A stretch of DNA of 64,000 bases from Mitsuokella multacida DSM 20544 (GTDB lineage: Bacteria > Bacillota > Negativicutes > Selenomonadales > Selenomonadaceae): NCBI RefSeq assembly GCF_000155955.1, contig NZ_GG697141.2, positions 1,334,086 to 1,398,085 on the forward strand, given 5' to 3'. The position numbers and the translations under genes were made by a program. The notes under the pieces were generated by a model. It had not been told where the DNA came from. It saw only the letters and a program-made list of their open reading frames with translations, and ran no database searches. Position 1 is the first letter of the stretch; each line of letters begins with the position of its first letter. Below, piece after piece: positions 4,979 to 39,750 of this stretch.

Positions 4979-7900
4979 ATGAAACGGAAAACCATCGGGA
5001 TAGGCATCGGCGCGCTTTTTGGCGTGCTGCTGCTGGTACTGGGCGGCATCTGGTACTACATACAGACCAGCGCGTTCATGGACAAAGTAGAGAGCACGGC
5101 GTCCACTGTAGCCAGTGAGACGCTCGGTGTGCCGGTCTCCGTCGGCGCCATCAAGGTGAATTCGCTTCATGACCTTGAGATTCATGATCTTGCCATCTAT
5201 GATAAGCAGGCGGAATGCATCGCCCAGGCCGATACGGCCCGGGTGGAGCTCCGCCTGCTTTCTGCATACCGCGACCCGGCCTACGTCGTCAAGGAAGTCA
5301 CGCTCTCGAATGTCAAGGCAAACCTCATCCAACGCGAGGACGGCAGCTGGAACGTCGAGGACATCAAGACGCAGAGCTCGGGCTCTAGCTCGTTCTTCGG
5401 CACGGTCACGGTGGAGAACGGCACGGTCACGGTGTCGGCGCAGGGCCATGAGGTCACGGCGCAGGACATCGAGGGCTCGGCTGATTTCTCGGACTATCCC
5501 GTGCTGAAGCTCGCGGCCAAGGCAAACTGTCTCGATTCGGCCGTCGATTTCTCGGGCACCTACCGCAAGGAGCGCCAGATCTTCAACCTGAAGGTCTCGG
5601 GCCTCGACCTCATGAACGTCCTGCCCTTGCTGCCGGATGGCACGATCCCTGACGGCGTCGAAGTCCTCGGCGGCACGGTCACGGAGGCCAAGGTCTCGGG
5701 CCAGTACATGGGCAGCCAGCTCTCCTTTGCAGGACAGGCTCAGTACGAGAACGGCTCGGTCAAGGTCAAGGACACGCAGGTCGACGACATCCACGGCTTT
5801 GCCTCGTTCACAGATGCAGAGGTGCTGCTCTTTACGGACGCAGAGGCGGCCGGCCAGCAGGCACATGCCGAGGGCAAGGTCCGCTACGACACGGATACCC
5901 CGTACCTCGACCTCACGATCTCATCCGATTCGCTTGACCCCGCAAAGGTGCTCAAGGACATCCCCTATGAAGGTGCGGCTTCGCTCAAGGCACATATCAC
6001 AGGCCCGGTGAAGGACCCCGTCATCGACGGTGATGTCCGCGTCGCTTCCGGCGCGGCCAATGGCATCCCGTTCACGAATGCGAGCGCACACGTCCGCTAT
6101 GAAGGCGGGCGCGTCTCTGTTCAGGATGTCTCGGTCAGCGCTTTCGGCGGCACAGTGCGCGGCGAGGGTACGTTCTCGCCGAGCAGCCTGACGTATGCAG
6201 CTCATCTCGTCGGCAGCGATATCGACACGCAGCAGGCGGCTTCGTACATCCCGGAGCTTGCGGACCTCACGGGCCGTGTCTCCTTCAACATGGGCCTTTC
6301 CGGCACGGGCACAGATACGAGCGATCTGCAGGCGTACGGCAGCGCCGCCCTGCAGGCTGGTTCGTACAAGGGCCTGCCGATCGAGAGCCTCACGGCCTCG
6401 TTCTTCGCGCAGGGCACGGATGTCACGATCGACTACGCGAGCCTCAACCTGCCGCATCGCTCGAGCCTTGGCATCGAGGGCAAGGTCAAGGGCGGCCGCA
6501 AGATCGACCTCGCCTTCTACGGCGGCCATGTCGACCTCTCGCTCGCGCGGACGCTGATCCCCGAGGCCGATGTCACGGGGCTCGGCGACTTTGAGGGCAC
6601 GGCACAGGGCGATATCGCTGATCCTGTGGTGAACTTCAAGTTCACCGCGACGAACGGCACGCTCTTCAAGCAGCCGTACGACAGCCTGAAATTCAACGCT
6701 GGCGGCAGCCTCGACGGCGTCACGATCGACGAGTTCTCGCTCGTCAAGGACGGCAAGCAGACCTGGTACGTAGACGGCTCGGTCGGCCTCACAGGGGAGC
6801 GGCGCATCGACATGCGCATCGACACGGTCGGTGCCCGCATGGAGGATATCGCGGCGCTCGCCTTCCCCGACCAGCCCATCACGGGTAATGTCGACAACAC
6901 CATCAAGATCACGGGCACGCTCGACCATCCCAATGCCGTCGGCTACATCCACTTCTACCGCGGCAGCTACAACGGCATCCTGCTTTCCGGCATGGACGGC
7001 GACTACTTCATGGAGGATGGCTTCACGCGCCTGCAGGACTTCCACGTCTTCTCGCCGATGGTCGACATGGACCTCAACGGCACAGTCGACCGCAACTGGA
7101 ACCTCGACATGATCGCGAGCGTCCACGAGATCAACATGGAGCGCTTCGCGAACAAGTTCCCGTATCCGGTCAGCGGCAAGGGCACGTTCGCTGGCCAGAT
7201 TGGCGGCACGCTCATGGACCCGACTTTCCACGGCATCCTCACGGCACCTTCCATCACGCTCAACGACCAGGAGCTCACGGATGTCCGTGGCATGGTCGAC
7301 TATGAGGACCGCGTCGTCAGCCTGAGCCAGTTCGGCTTCCGCCAGGGCGGTGGCAGCTATCAGGCGTCGCTCTCCATCAATATCGATACGCACGATGCCG
7401 ACGGCAGCGTCAAGGTGCAGGACGGCGATGTCAATGCAATCGCGGCCATCTGCAATTTCAAGAACGAGATTGTCTCCGGCAAGGTCAGCAGCGATGTCCA
7501 GGTCGGCGGCACCTACGACAATCCGGAGCTCACGATCACCGGGCAGCTGGCGGACGGCAAGATCTCTGGGTACGACGTCCACGATGTCGATGCCAATCTG
7601 CACTTGCTCGACCACGTCGTCTACATCGATAAGCTCGCGGGCCAGCAGGGCACGGACGGCAGCTTCACGGCAGATGGCTATGTGACGATCGGCGGACCGA
7701 TCCAGGCGCATTTCTCGGCGCAGAAGCTCGCGCTCGGCATGTTCACGAAGTCGGCCGGCCTCGCGCGCGAGGTGCACGGTACGGCTGACATCGAGGCGAC
7801 GTTCGGCGGCACGACGGATAACCCCTCTGCCGATGTCACGATTGCCGCGAACAACGGCGGCTTCCAGGGCTCGACGTTCGATGCGATGAACGGCGAGTTC

Positions 7901-9310
7901 CACCTCAAGAACGGCCTCGTCGATGTCAAGGACTTCTCGGTCGCGAAGGCCATCAACGGCAAGGACTACACGGCCTCGGCCAAGGGCATCGTGCCGATCA
8001 AGGCACTTTTTGCCAACCGCAATGAGGACCTCAACGACTACGAGCGCATCAAGCTCGATGTCAGCCTCGACCAGGCCGACCTTTCCATCCTGCCGTTCGT
8101 CTCCGACCAGATCGACTGGGCGCTCGGTCCGACGAAGGGCACGCTGGAGTTTACGGGCACGCTCGCGCACCCGCTCGTCACGGGCAGCATCTCCCTGTCG
8201 GACGGCGCCGTCAAGTTCAAGCCGCTCACCGTGCCAGTCACGGAGATGACGGCCCAGATTGATTTTAATGGCGATACGATGACAGTCCGCGATTTTTCTG
8301 GTAAAATGGGCGAAGGTATGTATACGGGGCAGGGTACGCTCAAGATGAACGGCCTGACACCCTCTGAGTACGATTTTTCGTTGACAGCGGACAAGCTCGA
8401 CGTGCAGAGCAGCTTCTTCAAGGGGCCTCTGAGCGGACAGCTGCGCGTCAACAAAGACAAGTTCTACGGCATGGAACTGCCGAAGATATCAGGGCAGGTC
8501 GACCTCGCAAACTGCACGATCTCGGTGCCGGCCATCCCCGACAGCGACGGCGAGCTGCCGGACATCATCCTCGACGCCGACGTCAATGTCGGCGACAAGG
8601 TCCACGCCTACAGCTCGTACCTCTACGATATGTACCTGACGGGCAACGTCCACTTCGGCGGTACGACGCGCCATCCGAAGACGTCGGGCTCGGTGTCCGT
8701 CAAGCGCGGCGGCACGATCAACTACCTCAAGACGGAGTTCAACGTCCGCGAGGGAACGGCCTACTTCAACCAGGTCGATTCGTTCTTGCCGAGCATCACG
8801 TTCCTGGCGGACACGCGCTTGACGCAGGCCAAGGTCTACCTTTCCATCACGGGGCCGCTCGACAACATGACGTTCACGCTGCGGTCGACGCCGGAGATGA
8901 GCCAGTCGGAGATCATCCAGCTGCTGACCCTGCGCGATGCCTACAAGGCCGGACAGGCCAACCTCGATGCCGGCGACCTCCTGATCGTCGGCCTGCAGAT
9001 GAGCTTCCTGTCCGAGGTCGAGGACGTCATGCGCAACATGCTCTGGCTCGACCGCTTCACGATCGCGCGCGGCAGCGGCTCTGCCTTTGATACGCACGAC
9101 GAGGAGTCGAGCAAGGACATCGATGTCTACCACGTCGAGATGGGCAAGTACATCACCGACAAGGTCATGCTCAAATACACGCAGCAGATCGGCGGCGATG
9201 ATACGCACCGCTTCGGCGTGCAGTACGACATGAACGACCGCTTTGGCCTGTCGCTCGATAAGGAGTCGCAGAAGTTCATCGTGGGCCTCGAAGCCCGCGT
9301 CCATTTCTGA
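4979..9310 (+). CDS. tamB: TamB/YtfN-like translocation and assembly module protein
   Basis: This very large AsmA-like protein has 1443 residues. The ATG at 4979 is preferred over an upstream in-frame GTG (4958) because GGGGAG precedes it by 7-8 bases. One N-terminal TM segment (about residues 6-26) is followed by an AsmA-like region. A long series of beta-rich repeats comes next, with recurring phrases such as ITGTLDHPNAVGYI, GGTYDNPELTITG and GGTTRHPKTSGSV, consistent with the TamB hydrophobic-groove fold. The DUF490 C-terminal domain (about 1100-1443) ends in VGLEARVHF. TamB-like proteins are proposed bridge-type lipid transporters. It lies in one operon-like run with mlaEFD-tolC; no tamA is seen, so BamA downstream is the likely outer-membrane partner. 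Confidence 0.92.
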   Translation: MKRKTIGIGIGALFGVLLLVLGGIWYYIQTSAFMDKVESTASTVASETLGVPVSVGAIKVNSLHDLEIHDLAIYDKQAECIAQADTARVELRLLSAYRDPAYVVKEVTLSNVKANLIQREDGSWNVEDIKTQSSGSSSFFGTVTVENGTVTVSAQGHEVTAQDIEGSADFSDYPVLKLAAKANCLDSAVDFSGTYRKERQIFNLKVSGLDLMNVLPLLPDGTIPDGVEVLGGTVTEAKVSGQYMGSQLSFAGQAQYENGSVKVKDTQVDDIHGFASFTDAEVLLFTDAEAAGQQAHAEGKVRYDTDTPYLDLTISSDSLDPAKVLKDIPYEGAASLKAHITGPVKDPVIDGDVRVASGAANGIPFTNASAHVRYEGGRVSVQDVSVSAFGGTVRGEGTFSPSSLTYAAHLVGSDIDTQQAASYIPELADLTGRVSFNMGLSGTGTDTSDLQAYGSAALQAGSYKGLPIESLTASFFAQGTDVTIDYASLNLPHRSSLGIEGKVKGGRKIDLAFYGGHVDLSLARTLIPEADVTGLGDFEGTAQGDIADPVVNFKFTATNGTLFKQPYDSLKFNAGGSLDGVTIDEFSLVKDGKQTWYVDGSVGLTGERRIDMRIDTVGARMEDIAALAFPDQPITGNVDNTIKITGTLDHPNAVGYIHFYRGSYNGILLSGMDGDYFMEDGFTRLQDFHVFSPMVDMDLNGTVDRNWNLDMIASVHEINMERFANKFPYPVSGKGTFAGQIGGTLMDPTFHGILTAPSITLNDQELTDVRGMVDYEDRVVSLSQFGFRQGGGSYQASLSINIDTHDADGSVKVQDGDVNAIAAICNFKNEIVSGKVSSDVQVGGTYDNPELTITGQLADGKISGYDVHDVDANLHLLDHVVYIDKLAGQQGTDGSFTADGYVTIGGPIQAHFSAQKLALGMFTKSAGLAREVHGTADIEATFGGTTDNPSADVTIAANNGGFQGSTFDAMNGEFHLKNGLVDVKDFSVAKAINGKDYTASAKGIVPIKALFANRNEDLNDYERIKLDVSLDQADLSILPFVSDQIDWALGPTKGTLEFTGTLAHPLVTGSISLSDGAVKFKPLTVPVTEMTAQIDFNGDTMTVRDFSGKMGEGMYTGQGTLKMNGLTPSEYDFSLTADKLDVQSSFFKGPLSGQLRVNKDKFYGMELPKISGQVDLANCTISVPAIPDSDGELPDIILDADVNVGDKVHAYSSYLYDMYLTGNVHFGGTTRHPKTSGSVSVKRGGTINYLKTEFNVREGTAYFNQVDSFLPSITFLADTRLTQAKVYLSITGPLDNMTFTLRSTPEMSQSEIIQLLTLRDAYKAGQANLDAGDLLIVGLQMSFLSEVEDVMRNMLWLDRFTIARGSGSAFDTHDEESSKDIDVYHVEMGKYITDKVMLKYTQQIGGDDTHRFGVQYDMNDRFGLSLDKESQKFIVGLEARVHF

Positions 9311-9345: not shown

Positions 9346-9972
9346 ATGCAGCTCGCAGATTACCTGAAGGAGCTCCGCAAGGTAAAGACACTGGACCTTG
9401 AAGAGGAGCAGGCGCTTTGGGCCGCGTTCAAGGAGCGCGGCGATGAAGGCGCGCGCCAGCGGCTCATCGAATCGTATCAGCCGCTCGTCTTCAAGCAAGC
9501 GGCACCTTTTGCGCAGCTCGACTGCGCTCTCGACCTCATCCAAGAGGGCACGGTCGGCCTCATCGAGGCGGCGGAGCGCTACGACCATACGCGCGGCGTG
9601 GCCTTCAGCCTGTTTGCCGTGCACCGCATCCGCGGCCGCATGATGGATTTCCTGCGGCGCGAGGGGCAGGTCGATGTCGCCTGCATGGAGGAGAATCTCG
9701 AGGGCGGAAACCTCAAGGAGAATCTCGTCGACACGGGGGCATCCGTGCCGGAGCAGGCGGAGAGCCATGAGCTCGCGCACCGCCTCCATCAGGCGATGGC
9801 GCGCCTGCCGGACAAGGAGCGCGCCGTGCTCGAGGGCATGTACCTGAGCAGCGAGGACGCTGCGGGCATGGCCGACGCCCTGCACGTCAGCGCCTCGCAC
9901 ATCTACCGCCTGCAGAAGAACGGCATCCGCCGCGTCCGCGGCATGCTCTCTCGCTTCATGCATTACTGGTGA
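9346..9972 (+). CDS. Small sigma-70 family RNA polymerase sigma factor
   Basis: This protein has 208 residues. The ATG at 9346 is chosen because GAGGAGG sits 8-9 bases upstream; an in-frame TTG at 9322 precedes that site. Region 2 spans about residues 36-106, with DLIQEGTVGLIEAAERYD and FSLFAVHRIRGRMMDFLRR resembling the core-binding and -10 recognition helices of sigma-70 group 3 factors. Region 4 spans about 145-208, with LPDKERAVLEGMYL and a helix-turn-helix ending HIYRLQKNGIRRVR. The linker is short and a full region 3 is not evident. It lies between tamB and bamA. No anti-sigma factor is recognisable, although the next gene encodes a one-TM protein with a basic cytoplasmic end. Promoter specificity is unknown. 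Confidence 0.88.
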   Translation: MQLADYLKELRKVKTLDLEEEQALWAAFKERGDEGARQRLIESYQPLVFKQAAPFAQLDCALDLIQEGTVGLIEAAERYDHTRGVAFSLFAVHRIRGRMMDFLRREGQVDVACMEENLEGGNLKENLVDTGASVPEQAESHELAHRLHQAMARLPDKERAVLEGMYLSSEDAAGMADALHVSASHIYRLQKNGIRRVRGMLSRFMHYW

Positions 9973-10126
9973 AAGAAAAGAAATCGAGTAGGAAGCGCAA
10001 GGAAATAGTGGAAAACAGAAGCCATTTGAACGGCATCCGCTCTCATCGCGCGATACGGCATGTCATTATGACGGGAACACCTCGGATTATAGGAATAAGT
10101 CTGTGGAATCGGGCAGGAGGTGTGTC

Positions 10127-10717
10127 ATGAAGGACCGGAATCAGAAACAGCGCCGTCACATCCGGGCGGCAAGGCAGTGGCTCGGGGAGGCGGAGACTTC
10201 GCTCGCGGAGAATCACAGAGTGCGCGGAGAGCTCAAAGTCATGCTGGCCAAGGCAGAACTGGCCCGGGTGGAAGGCACGCCGGGCCATCGCTTTGTCAAG
10301 CGGTGGTCGATGCGCCTGATGCCAGCACTTGTGGCGCTCGTCATCGCGGGCGGCGGTTATGCGCTCTGGCAGAGCCGGACGGCCGTCTACACGGCAGCGC
10401 CGGCTCCTGTGAGGGCACAGGTAGATGCCGTGGATGCGGTGGAGGACGCCGCCGAGCCGCAGGAAGCTCCTGCGGTGCAGGTGACGACTGCCACGAGCGC
10501 ACCAGAGGCGGAGCCCGCCGCAGTTGCGCCGCCGCAGCAGATGTCAGAGGCAGAGGCGCCCGCTAAGGTGACGGCAGCGGCTTCACCGCAGGCTGCACCC
10601 CAAGAGACAGCCCCCGCGGCAGCAGAGCCGCACGCGGTAGTGCAGAGCGCGCCGAAAGTCCCGGATGACGGGATGCAGAAATTGATGCAGACCGCAGGCA
10701 AGACCTTGCGGCGGTGA
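10127..10717 (+). CDS. Uncharacterised single-pass membrane protein with Ala/Pro/Glu-rich tail
   Basis: The product is 196 residues from the ATG at 10127, which has CAGGAGG upstream (an in-frame GTG at 10103 precedes the site). I do not recognise a family. Residues 1-62 are basic and predicted helical, with many Arg/Lys (KQRRHIRAARQWL). One TM segment follows (about 64-81, PALVALVIAGGGYALW). The remaining 115 residues are low-complexity Ala, Pro, Glu, Thr and Val. The topology suggests a cytoplasmic N-terminus and an extended periplasmic tail. It follows the sigma-factor gene by 154 bases and precedes bamA. An anti-sigma role is conceivable from position and topology, but no anti-sigma motif is visible. 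Confidence 0.7.
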   Translation: MKDRNQKQRRHIRAARQWLGEAETSLAENHRVRGELKVMLAKAELARVEGTPGHRFVKRWSMRLMPALVALVIAGGGYALWQSRTAVYTAAPAPVRAQVDAVDAVEDAAEPQEAPAVQVTTATSAPEAEPAAVAPPQQMSEAEAPAKVTAAASPQAAPQETAPAAAEPHAVVQSAPKVPDDGMQKLMQTAGKTLRR

Positions 10718-10765: not shown

Positions 10766-12739
10766 TTGAAGAAACAGAACTACAGATCCCTCGCTTACGC
10801 TGTGGCAATTGCCCTTGGCTGCACGGCTATGCCGGGTACATCTTGGGCAGCCGAGGCCCCAGCTGCGAGCACAGAGCCCGCGGCAACGGCTGAGACGGCT
10901 GCGCAGGATGCGGCCGCCGTTGCACCGGCAGCGGCGAAAGCAGCTGAGACAGCTGCTGCGCCTGAGACAAAGGCCGCAGCCGAAACTTCTGCTTCGGCGC
11001 AGGCGGATGCCGTTGCGACGAGCACAGTGGACGAGCGCACGCTGAACTGGGGCAAGACGCGCCCGCAGGAGACGGCTATCGCGGACAGCATGAAGCAGTA
11101 CGAAGGTCAGACTGTCGTCGAGACCGTGTTCGACGGCACTTCCGCCCTGACGGAGGGCACGGCGAAGGCCGCCATCTCGATGAAGGCCGGCGACATGTTC
11201 ACGGTCAAGGGCCTCGAGGCCGACCGCGACAAGATCTACAACACGGGCTACTTCTACGATATCTATCCGAGCTTTGAGAAGGTGCCGGAAGGTGTCGTCG
11301 TCACGTACCACGTGCTGGAGAACCCGGTCCTCAAGGGCATTAGCCTCAGCGGCAACACGGTCGAGAGCACGGAGACGCTCCAGGGGCTCATCACCATGAA
11401 GACGGGCGAGATCCTCAACAGCCGCGAGCTCAACAAGGACGTCATGGCCATCCAGGAACAGTACCGCCGCGACGGCTACATCCTCGCAAAGATCACGGAC
11501 ATGAACATCGACAAGAATGGCATCCTGACCCTCAAGGTCAACGAGGGCATCCTCGAGGGCTACAAGGTCAAGGGCAATACGAAGACGAAGGAGCGCGTCA
11601 TCCTGCGCGAGATGCGCCAGAAGCCGGGTGAGCCGTTCAACTCGAAGCTCGCGCGCCGCAGCATGCAGCGCGTCTACAACCTCGGCTTCTTCGAGGATGT
11701 CAACATCAAGATGAACCCGGGTGTCGACCCGAATGCCGTCGTCATGGAGCTCGACGTCACGGAGAAGCGCACGGGATCGTTCGGCATCGGTGCTGGCTAC
11801 TCGAGCGAGGACGGCGTCGTCGGCATGGTCTCAATCGGCGACACGAACTTCCGCGGCACGGGCGATGCCATCAGCCTCTCGTACGAGACGAGCGGCGATG
11901 ACACGGATGCGCACGGCTACACGTTCTCCTACCGCCGGCCGTGGCTCGACAGCAAGGAGACGGTCGGCACGTTCCGCATCTACAACCGCACGTACGAGTA
12001 CGATGATTACGATGAGAGCGGCGACCTCAAGGAGACGTACATGCGCAAGTACTCCGGCGGCGAGCTGACGTTTGGCCGTCCGGTCAGCGAGTACTCGACG
12101 AACTACCTGACGCTGCGCAATCGCAAGGACTCATATGTAAAGCACGTCGATGACGGTAACCTCGGCGACCGCAGCACCCCAGCGTATGAGGGCTGGCGCA
12201 GGGACAACTTCGGCACGACGCGCAGCGTAACGTTCGAGCACGTGACGGATACGCGCGACAACGTCTACAACCCGATGAGCGGCAGCCGCCTGAGCCTCTC
12301 GGGCGAGTTCGCGGGCTTCGGCGGCGACTTCGACTTCCAGAAGTACACAGTCGACGGCCAGCGCTACATCCGTGCAGGCCGCTCCCAGGTCTTCGCGCTG
12401 CGCGCCCGTTATGGCGTCGGCACGGGCGACATCTCGGAGTTCAACCAGTACCGCATCGGCGGCCAGGGCTCGCTGCGCGGCTACCGCGAGGACCAGTTCC
12501 GCGGCGACCGCGAGTTCCTCGGCACGGTCGAGTACCGCTTCCCGGTCGTCAAGAAGGTGCAGGGTGCTCTGTTCACGGACTGGGGCGGCGCTTGGGACAG
12601 CGGCCTGACGCCGGACGACCTGCACGCGAGTGTCGGTGTCGGCATCTCGCTGACGACGCCAATCGGACCGCTGCGCTTCGACTACGGCTGGGGCGAGGAC
12701 GGCGGACGCGTCCACTTCAACGTCGGCAGCACGTTCTGA
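10766..12739 (+). CDS. bamA: BamA outer membrane protein assembly factor
   Basis: This 657-residue Omp85 protein starts at TTG (10766), with TAGGAGG upstream. A signal peptide (about 1-28, ending GTSWAA) is followed by a 60-residue Ala/Glu/Thr-rich linker. Three POTRA domains follow, at about 112-187, 188-261 and 262-335 (for example NLGFFEDVNIK in the last). Proteobacterial BamA has five. The 16-strand barrel domain (about 336-657) contains GQGSLRGYRE, the VRGF/Y-like loop-6 motif, and ends in a C-terminal Phe (HFNVGSTF). It is essential for folding barrel proteins into the outer membrane. It is followed at 43 bases by another probable outer-membrane protein gene and then by chaperone-like genes. 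Confidence 0.95.
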   Translation: MKKQNYRSLAYAVAIALGCTAMPGTSWAAEAPAASTEPAATAETAAQDAAAVAPAAAKAAETAAAPETKAAAETSASAQADAVATSTVDERTLNWGKTRPQETAIADSMKQYEGQTVVETVFDGTSALTEGTAKAAISMKAGDMFTVKGLEADRDKIYNTGYFYDIYPSFEKVPEGVVVTYHVLENPVLKGISLSGNTVESTETLQGLITMKTGEILNSRELNKDVMAIQEQYRRDGYILAKITDMNIDKNGILTLKVNEGILEGYKVKGNTKTKERVILREMRQKPGEPFNSKLARRSMQRVYNLGFFEDVNIKMNPGVDPNAVVMELDVTEKRTGSFGIGAGYSSEDGVVGMVSIGDTNFRGTGDAISLSYETSGDDTDAHGYTFSYRRPWLDSKETVGTFRIYNRTYEYDDYDESGDLKETYMRKYSGGELTFGRPVSEYSTNYLTLRNRKDSYVKHVDDGNLGDRSTPAYEGWRRDNFGTTRSVTFEHVTDTRDNVYNPMSGSRLSLSGEFAGFGGDFDFQKYTVDGQRYIRAGRSQVFALRARYGVGTGDISEFNQYRIGGQGSLRGYREDQFRGDREFLGTVEYRFPVVKKVQGALFTDWGGAWDSGLTPDDLHASVGVGISLTTPIGPLRFDYGWGEDGGRVHFNVGSTF

Positions 12740-19747: not shown

Positions 19748-19923
19748 TTTCAGCCTGTATCAATTGCCTAATCGCATGTAGTCTTTGTTCAACTCGTAAA
19801 ACGCCCAGATTTGCAGTCAAATGAGATACAAGAATGATGAGGGTATTCAGGAGTATATAAAAAAGGACAGAGCAAACTGGCCGGAAAGACCGGCTTTGGA
19901 GGAAGGTTAAGGAGTTGGAGCAG

Positions 19924-20736
19924 ATGAATACGGACAACAAGGTCACTGCAAATATACATGAAACAGCTGTCGTCGCACCTGGTGCGAAGATTGCGGAGAA
20001 CGTCGAGATCGGGCCTTACTCGGTCATCGGCGAGAACGTCGAGATCGGCGAGGGCACGAAGATCGGCCCGCATGTCGTCATCCACGGCTGGACCCAGATC
20101 GGCAAGGACTGCCGCATCTTCCAGGGGGCTTCCATCGGCGAAGAGCCGCAGGACCTCAAGTTCAAGGGCGAGAAGAGCTACACGATCATCGGTGACCGCA
20201 CGACGATCCGCGAGGGCGCTACGATCCATCGCGCGACGGGTGAGGGCGAGGAGACGCGCGTCGGCAACGACTGCCTGCTCATGGCACTGACGCATGTCGC
20301 GCATAACTGCGTCGTCGGCAACCACGTCATCATGTCGAACCTCGCGAGCCTCGCAGGCCACGCCATCGTCGAGGACCGCGCGGTCATCGGCGGCATGGCT
20401 GGCGTTCATCAGTTCGTCAAGATCGGCCGCAACGCGATGGTCGGCGGCATGTCGAAGCTCACGCAGGACGTCGTGCCGTACACGATCGTCGACGGGCAGC
20501 CGGCCAAGGTCGTCGGCCTCAATGCCGTCGGCATCTCGCGCGCCGGCATCAAGCTCGATGCGCGCCGCAATATCAAGAAAGCATACAAGCTCCTCTATCG
20601 GTCGGGCCTGAGCCTGCAGCAGGCGATTGCCGTCATCGAGCAGGAAGTCGATTCCTGCGAGGAGGTCGAGCACTTCCTGCGCTTCCTGCGCAATGCAGAG
20701 CGCGGCATCTGCCGTGAGCGCAGAGAGCGCGACTGA
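19924..20736 (+). CDS. lpxA: UDP-GlcNAc O-acyltransferase LpxA
   Basis: This enzyme adds the first hydroxyacyl chain to UDP-GlcNAc. The product is 270 residues from ATG 19924; AAGGAG ends 9 bases upstream. A TTG at 19915 is an alternative that would add three residues. The left-handed beta-helix of hexapeptide repeats spans about 10-190 ([20 protein letters not shown]), and the catalytic His is in [16 protein letters not shown] helical C-terminal domain (about 195-265) contains the family phrase AVGISRAGI. It is followed by lpxI and lpxB. Confidence 0.95.
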
Positions 20737-39517: not shown

Positions 39518-39750
39518 AGTCATTGCGATGAATCAATAGGAAACAATACAAATGATTTATCGCAGTATAAATCTCTCTTATGGATAACGTTTGCCATGAT
39601 AGTGAAAATAGATGTTTTTACCGTTTGGGTCTCTGGAATAGCAGGAATCCCATGGCAGATGTCGAACTAAGAGAAGTGGGAAGCTATGACTTCCCGTTCA
39701 TCACTATGATATTCATCAAAGACGGCGCCCGCCGTCGTCAGAGGAGGAAT
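39518..39750 (+). other. Long 5' leader of the atp operon with two hairpins
   Basis: About 230 bases separate the promoter from the atpI start. The leader holds GGGAAG/CTTCCC (39678-39695) and a tight GACGGCG/CGCCGTC dyad (39721-39736) that ends five bases before the GAGGAGG ribosome site (39741-39747). The rest is AT-rich with no recognised riboswitch. An open frame running through it from 39580 has no ribosome site. Confidence 0.5.

Follow-up and report, generated by a model that had tools for sequence, protein, structure and literature searches.

A sigma factor gene and a candidate membrane anti-sigma gene conserved within the outer-membrane cluster of Negativicutes

The window analysed here, i.e. 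the whole stretch of 64,000 nucleotides from Mitsuokella multacida DSM 20544, carries a gene for a sigma-70-family factor (hereafter SIG) placed among outer-membrane (OM) assembly genes. It is followed by a gene for a conserved membrane protein (ORF196) and, directly behind bamA, by a gene for an uncharacterised predicted OM protein (P436). The genes of this part of the cluster are the following.

tamB: 4979..9310, + strand; Pfam PF04357 (5.8e-42), with a gap of 35 nt to SIG downstream.
SIG: 9346..9972, + strand; sigma-70-family factor of 208 residues, made of a region 1.2-like part (residues 1-35), region 2 (40-107) and region 4 (about 146-199), with a linker devoid of region 3.
ORF196: 10127..10717, + strand; conserved single-pass membrane protein of 196 residues and candidate anti-sigma, with a cytoplasmic part (1-58), a transmembrane (TM) segment (about 62-82), a Pro/Ala-rich periplasmic stretch and a conserved C-terminal motif.
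bamA: 10820..12739, + strand; Omp85 protein with POTRA domains (Pfam PF01103, 5e-44), downstream of the candidate promoter P1 described below.
P436: 12801..14111, + strand; signal peptide, three POTRA-like units and a 10-strand C-terminal beta barrel as predicted by AlphaFold.

The SIG reading frame starts with an ATG codon and has a good ribosome-binding site. Pfam recognised Sigma70_r2 (1.6e-14, residues 40-107) and Sigma70_r4 (1.1e-5, residues 150-198) and no region 3, and NCBIfam assigned the protein to the sigma-70 superfamily (1.4e-25), which confirmed the first-pass annotation of a sigma-70-type factor of 208 residues with regions 2 and 4 among OM assembly genes. The top NCBIfam subfamily scores were those of RpoH, WhiG, SigBFG and FliA, with no equivalog cut-off reached (76-87 bits for the group 3 subfamilies vs cut-offs of 190-343), and residues 2-35 aligned with region 1.2 of RpoH, RpoD and RpoS. 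Only three sigma-70-family proteins were found in the genome, i.e. RpoD, a SigH-like protein and SIG. Because full-length orthologs were retrieved from 36 of 41 relatives (17 families, 46-90 % identity), SIG is, judging from its conservation, a real gene; the nearest named genome by this protein is that of M. jalaludinii (90 % identity).

Orthologs of SIG were present in 120 of the 151 sampled genomes of the class Negativicutes, single-copy and in conserved synteny class-wide, and in 11 genomes outside the class belonging to 8 other families of the phylum (f30, f43, f49, f97, f99, f112, f121 and f122). The conservation of the locus across Negativicutes, on which the first-pass annotation had made its reading depend, thus reaches far beyond one genome. 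The gene almost always lies between tamB and bamA, and the order mlaEFD-tolC-tamB-SIG-ORF196-bamA-P436-skp-lpxD was kept almost everywhere in the class sample. The order tamB-SIG-ORF196-bamA is shared by all 11 genomes from outside the class, with ORF196 orthologs 3' of SIG and a gap of 14-30 nt between the two genes in five of them. The same order was seen in 72 of the 80 named loci, the remaining eight corresponding to contig ends or to SIG, alone or with ORF196, outside the cluster. The conserved position claimed at first therefore held for most loci and gave way in a few rumen metagenome-assembled genomes, where SIG is surrounded by unrelated genes away from the OM cluster (L108, L116, L118 and L121), and in one genus with a split cluster. 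SIG is probably outside the cluster in L137 as well. In L129, SIG and ORF196 are still adjacent, outside the cluster and without tamB; in L043, tamB was not found beside the pair, and some contigs of the sample are short. At locus L154 (genome G188), one of the 11 outside the class, about 3.2 kb separate SIG from ORF196 and the locus is otherwise conserved.

The split cluster belongs to genus g272 (family f18). It is broken exactly between SIG and ORF196, so that tolC-tamB-SIG and ORF196-bamA-P436-skp-lpxD are found on separate contigs (loci L182-L191 of genomes G371, G421, G425, G441 and G453). No part has been lost, which speaks for action in trans.

In the phylum sample, an Omp85 protein was found in all 19 genomes with a full-length SIG ortholog. 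As about 59 more genomes have Omp85 and no SIG, SIG is a property of a subset of diderm lineages. These Omp85 genomes without SIG are also without P436 (e.g. in families f25, f38, f66, f72 and f78). Sigma matches with E values of about 1e-26 in other families were set aside as different proteins rather than SIG orthologs, and no OM-gene match was found around such a protein in the one locus of this kind examined.

The AlphaFold model of P436 was confident (pLDDT 92) and comprised a signal helix, three b-a-a-b-b-like units and 10 strands. Foldseek returned TamA and BamA as best matches (E 1e-10, low TM-scores). The protein belongs to no Pfam or NCBIfam family, matched neither PF01103 nor a POTRA profile, and displayed no similarity to BamA in a profile comparison; ubiquitin matches were dismissed as chance.

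SIG and P436 are distributed together. Among the 151 class genomes, 120 have both, 30 have neither and one has P436 only (Fisher 8e-31, a value that overstates the evidence because related genomes are non-independent observations). In the exception, G440, the C-terminus of ORF196 is kept at a contig end, and its SIG gene may thus have fallen into a gap of the assembly. The 17 genomes with P436 in the phylum sample are all among the 19 SIG-positive ones (the other two being G052 and G253), and P436 was found in none of the SIG-less genomes, although about 59 of them have Omp85. The SIG-less genomes with a readable locus (G283, G009, G013, G038, G147 and G032) retain tamB and bamA, and none of SIG, ORF196 and P436 was found between or behind these two genes. 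Losses of SIG, roughly counted, include g8, part of g12, a single member of g16, part of f15 and, within f18, g40. As far as gene content can tell, SIG, ORF196 and P436 are one evolutionary unit.

The first-pass annotation had stated that no obvious anti-sigma gene was present, which we revise, since ORF196 lies directly downstream of SIG and is a conserved single-TM protein with anti-sigma anatomy. Two of its parts are conserved, i.e. a cytoplasmic stretch (HIRAARxWLGxAExSL...RGxLxLMLAxAEL) and the C-terminal motif (MQKLMxxAGKxLR). Searches of Pfam, NCBIfam and PDB yielded no relative and no match to a known anti-sigma domain. A fusion of SIG and ORF196 was taken from a Selenomonas ruminantium contig as a single frame, with stop codons replaced by glycine, and modelled with AlphaFold (pTM 0.58; the model was read for its helices). 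It contained two cytosolic ORF196 helices (residues 3-25 and 29-47, pLDDT 93-95) followed by the TM helix. ORF196 thus has the general layout of membrane anti-sigma factors: a sigma-adjacent gene, cytoplasmic helices, a TM helix and an extracytoplasmic part. On this sequence and model evidence, it is probably the anti-sigma factor of SIG.

Two candidate SIG promoters were identified in the window.

P1: 10062..10091, + strand; GTCATT (10062-10067), 16 nt, then GGATTATA (10084-10091).
P2: 19828..19857, + strand; before lpxA, with the -10-like box GGAGTATA at 19850-19857.
lpxA: 19924..20736, + strand; first gene behind P2, followed by lpxI and lpxB.

P1 sits 43 nt before the start codon of ORF196, and the -10-like box of P2 lies 74 nt before the ATG of lpxA (19924). 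Both are instances of a promoter-like motif, about GTCAAA-N16-GGATTATA, which most Selenomonadaceae carry upstream of both the partner-bamA operon and lpxA. Upstream of ORF196, in 73 loci of this family, it reads about G(T/C)(C/G)AAA, a fixed gap and GGA(T/A)TATA, 30-65 nt from the start codon, and it scored above 7 in 61 of the 73 loci vs 3.8 of 73 in shuffles. The -10-like box has a nearly invariant GA and is without the conserved final T of the sigma-A box. A position matrix was built from the ORF196-upstream sites of the Selenomonadaceae loci; in the 64-kb window P1 ranked first among its matches (score 20.4 at 10084) and P2 second (16.7 at 19850), and, the lpxA site having been left out of the matrix, P2 represents an independent prediction. 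Weaker matches (score about 13) occur at 39562 and 30591.

Among the 18 SIG-positive genomes with a readable lpxA (tblastn in relatives), 15 had a motif scoring above 13 upstream of this gene vs 5 of about 320 regions upstream of other genes in the cluster; loci without lpxA were left out as mis-hits, most likely on lpxD. The SIG-less comparison consisted of two lineages. G283, which belongs to the genus of the best-scoring genomes, shows no motif site upstream of lpxA (score -5.5). G009 has none either, and its intergenic gap of 46 nt leaves no space for a promoter. RpoD and at least one further sigma factor are retained in both, G009 having two sigma-70-family proteins other than SIG. The motif was defined and tested within one family, the sole checks being control regions and SIG-less genomes; outside Selenomonadaceae it is weaker, and some members lack it or have it at a shifted position. 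On these sequence data, SIG is very probably the sigma factor directing RNA polymerase to P1 and P2. Of the envelope regulon suggested by the first-pass annotation, what has gained support is this pair of candidate promoters, one ahead of the partner-bamA operon and one ahead of lpxA. In several genomes (e.g. L033, L037, L042, L049 and L185) a second, sigma-A-like TATAAT sequence stands further upstream of ORF196, and transcription of the bamA operon may thus start from two promoters.

Further targets were searched for with two patterns. The loose one (GGANTATA followed by a Shine-Dalgarno sequence) gave no excess over control, and the strict bipartite one gave few matches in three Mitsuokella-group genomes. 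Four other strict-pattern sites in the M. multacida genome were rejected, being seemingly intragenic or, where they stand at the start of a gene, not conserved. Among three Selenomonas genomes, the sole shared site besides P1 and P2 was attributed to coding constraint, since it lies in a gene end and overlaps the ribosome-binding site of a likely rpe. As no further convincing conserved target emerged from the pattern searches in these six genomes, the SIG regulon may be very small.

The OM gene cluster of diderm Firmicutes (tamB, bamA, skp, lpx) was described by Antunes et al. 2016 (PMC5007114), and it is the same locus as the one studied here. The word 'sigma' is absent from the main text of that paper, which mentions no regulator of the cluster. 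No paper describing SIG was found in our literature search, most subscription journals being outside its coverage. In Veillonella parvula, TamB, BamA and Skp bear the locus tags Vpar_0526, 0527 and 0528-30 (PMC5491611), a consecutive series that leaves no room for SIG or P436. Going by these tags, Veillonella, the usual laboratory model, may be without the SIG module, and SIG seems to have been overlooked partly for that reason.

The best reading of the sequence data is that SIG and ORF196 would form a switch dedicated to OM-protein and lipid A synthesis, working like RpoE/RseA and unrelated to it. SIG would direct RNA polymerase to P1 and P2, so that bamA, P436, skp and the following genes would be induced from P1 together with lipid A synthesis from P2 (lpxA, lpxI and lpxB). 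The two-helix cytoplasmic part of ORF196 (roughly 55 residues) would hold SIG in the minimal style of CnrY, and its conserved periplasmic C-terminus would read the status of OM assembly, perhaps via P436 or BamA/TamB. SIG would be released when OM assembly fails or needs scaling up, and the switch would be self-limiting because P1 drives ORF196, providing negative feedback. We consider this model as a whole, i.e. a dedicated alternative sigma factor of the OM cluster, its anti-sigma factor and sensing of the OM state, to be reasonably likely. A wider proposal, which we hold with less assurance and at slightly under an even chance, is that P436, ORF196 and SIG could constitute an undescribed trans-envelope system tuning OM-protein assembly with lipid A synthesis, inherited with the ancestral OM cluster and repeatedly lost as a unit, probably also in the Veillonella lineage. 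That P436 belongs to the signal path rather than being an effector only is a more tentative suggestion.

The same genes might instead serve biogenesis rather than stress: SIG would be active in growth and couple bamA and lpxA expression, ORF196 would be an anchor, a co-factor or a linker between inner and outer membrane, and P436 would act in OM assembly. Such a role fits with two candidate targets that are both core synthesis genes, with a conserved ORF196 C-terminal motif and POTRA-like domains in P436 as expected of assembly parts, and with the lack of likeness between ORF196 and any known anti-sigma factor. Nevertheless, SIG and ORF196 stand side by side (14-30 nt apart in distant relatives) and are absent together, and a short helical cytoplasmic domain on a single TM helix is the typical layout of a membrane anti-sigma factor, which makes this alternative rather unlikely in our view.

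It is less probable still, and indeed improbable, that the GGATTATA motif serves RpoD or another regulator, with SIG controlling something else and the conserved locus reflecting no more than old linkage. The TATA-like letters would suit RpoD, and genome-wide pattern counts were close to control counts; against this, the -10-like box has its nearly invariant GA in place of a sigma-A box with final T, two SIG-less lineages with other sigma factors have no such motif upstream of lpxA, and SIG is kept in genomes where it is no longer linked to ORF196-bamA. As for a motility, sporulation or general-stress sigma factor of the FliA/WhiG/SigB kind located here by chance, to which the top subfamily scores (RpoH, WhiG, SigBFG and FliA) could point, the unreached equivalog cut-offs, the missing region 3, the OM genes found as neighbours and behind the candidate promoters in many families, and the restriction of full-length orthologs to Omp85 genomes in the phylum sample leave it scarcely credible.

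If the sigma/anti-sigma reading holds, what is new would be the membrane partner and the OM protein of this envelope switch. No description of how the OM is sensed and controlled in diderm Firmicutes was found in our searches, and this group has a key place in discussions of outer-membrane loss. Encoded in the ancestral OM cluster, a dedicated sigma switch would offer a testable regulator, and the repeated loss of SIG shows which diderm Firmicutes live without the module. Caution is needed with V. parvula, the usual model, which may be one of them.

Compared with known systems, SIG resembles the group 3 sigma factors (RpoH, WhiG, SigB and FliA) in its best profile scores, which concern regions 1.2 and 2, and differs from them by the absence of region 3 and by its scores below equivalog thresholds. 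With ECF (group 4) factors it shares regions 2 and 4 without region 3. These factors are devoid of region 1.2, whereas residues 2-35 of SIG align with that of RpoH/RpoD/RpoS, and their -35 'AAC' motif is not seen in the candidate -35 element, about G(T/C)(C/G)AAA, assuming that the promoter is that of SIG. The arrangement is reminiscent of E. coli RpoE (sigma-E)-RseA-RseB, with an alternative sigma factor, a single-pass inner-membrane partner and (candidate) targets that include OM-protein assembly, i.e. bamA and skp. Unlike in that system, SIG has a region 1.2-like start and scores best with group 3 factors, ORF196 has no RseA-type domain (Pfam/NCBIfam), the genes lie inside the OM cluster, and no RseB or DegS link is shown. 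The first-pass annotation was thus right to place SIG in a sigma group different from that of RpoE: with its region 1.2-like start and different candidate promoter, it is not a standard RpoE/ECF factor.

P436 may resemble the Omp85 proteins TamA and BamA by its predicted POTRA-like units and OM barrel (Foldseek E 1e-10, low TM-scores), and departs from them by 10 predicted strands rather than 16 and by the absence of a Pfam Omp85/POTRA match. FecA-FecR-FecI surface signalling links an OM barrel protein, a TM anti-sigma factor and a sigma factor. P436-ORF196-SIG may be a comparable three-part chain, in which a signal could run along an analogous path; unlike FecA, P436 combines POTRA-like units with a small barrel and is not a TonB-dependent receptor. 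With CnrH-CnrY-CnrX of Cupriavidus (class II), no sequence similarity was found, SIG is not CnrH-like and the module has no metal sensor CnrX. Any likeness would lie in the anti-sigma factor. In this class a two-helix anti-sigma domain wraps the sigma factor; the cytoplasmic part of CnrY is very short, with two helices, and sits on a TM helix (PMC4598750, PMC7406223), and two cytosolic helices followed by a TM helix are predicted for ORF196.
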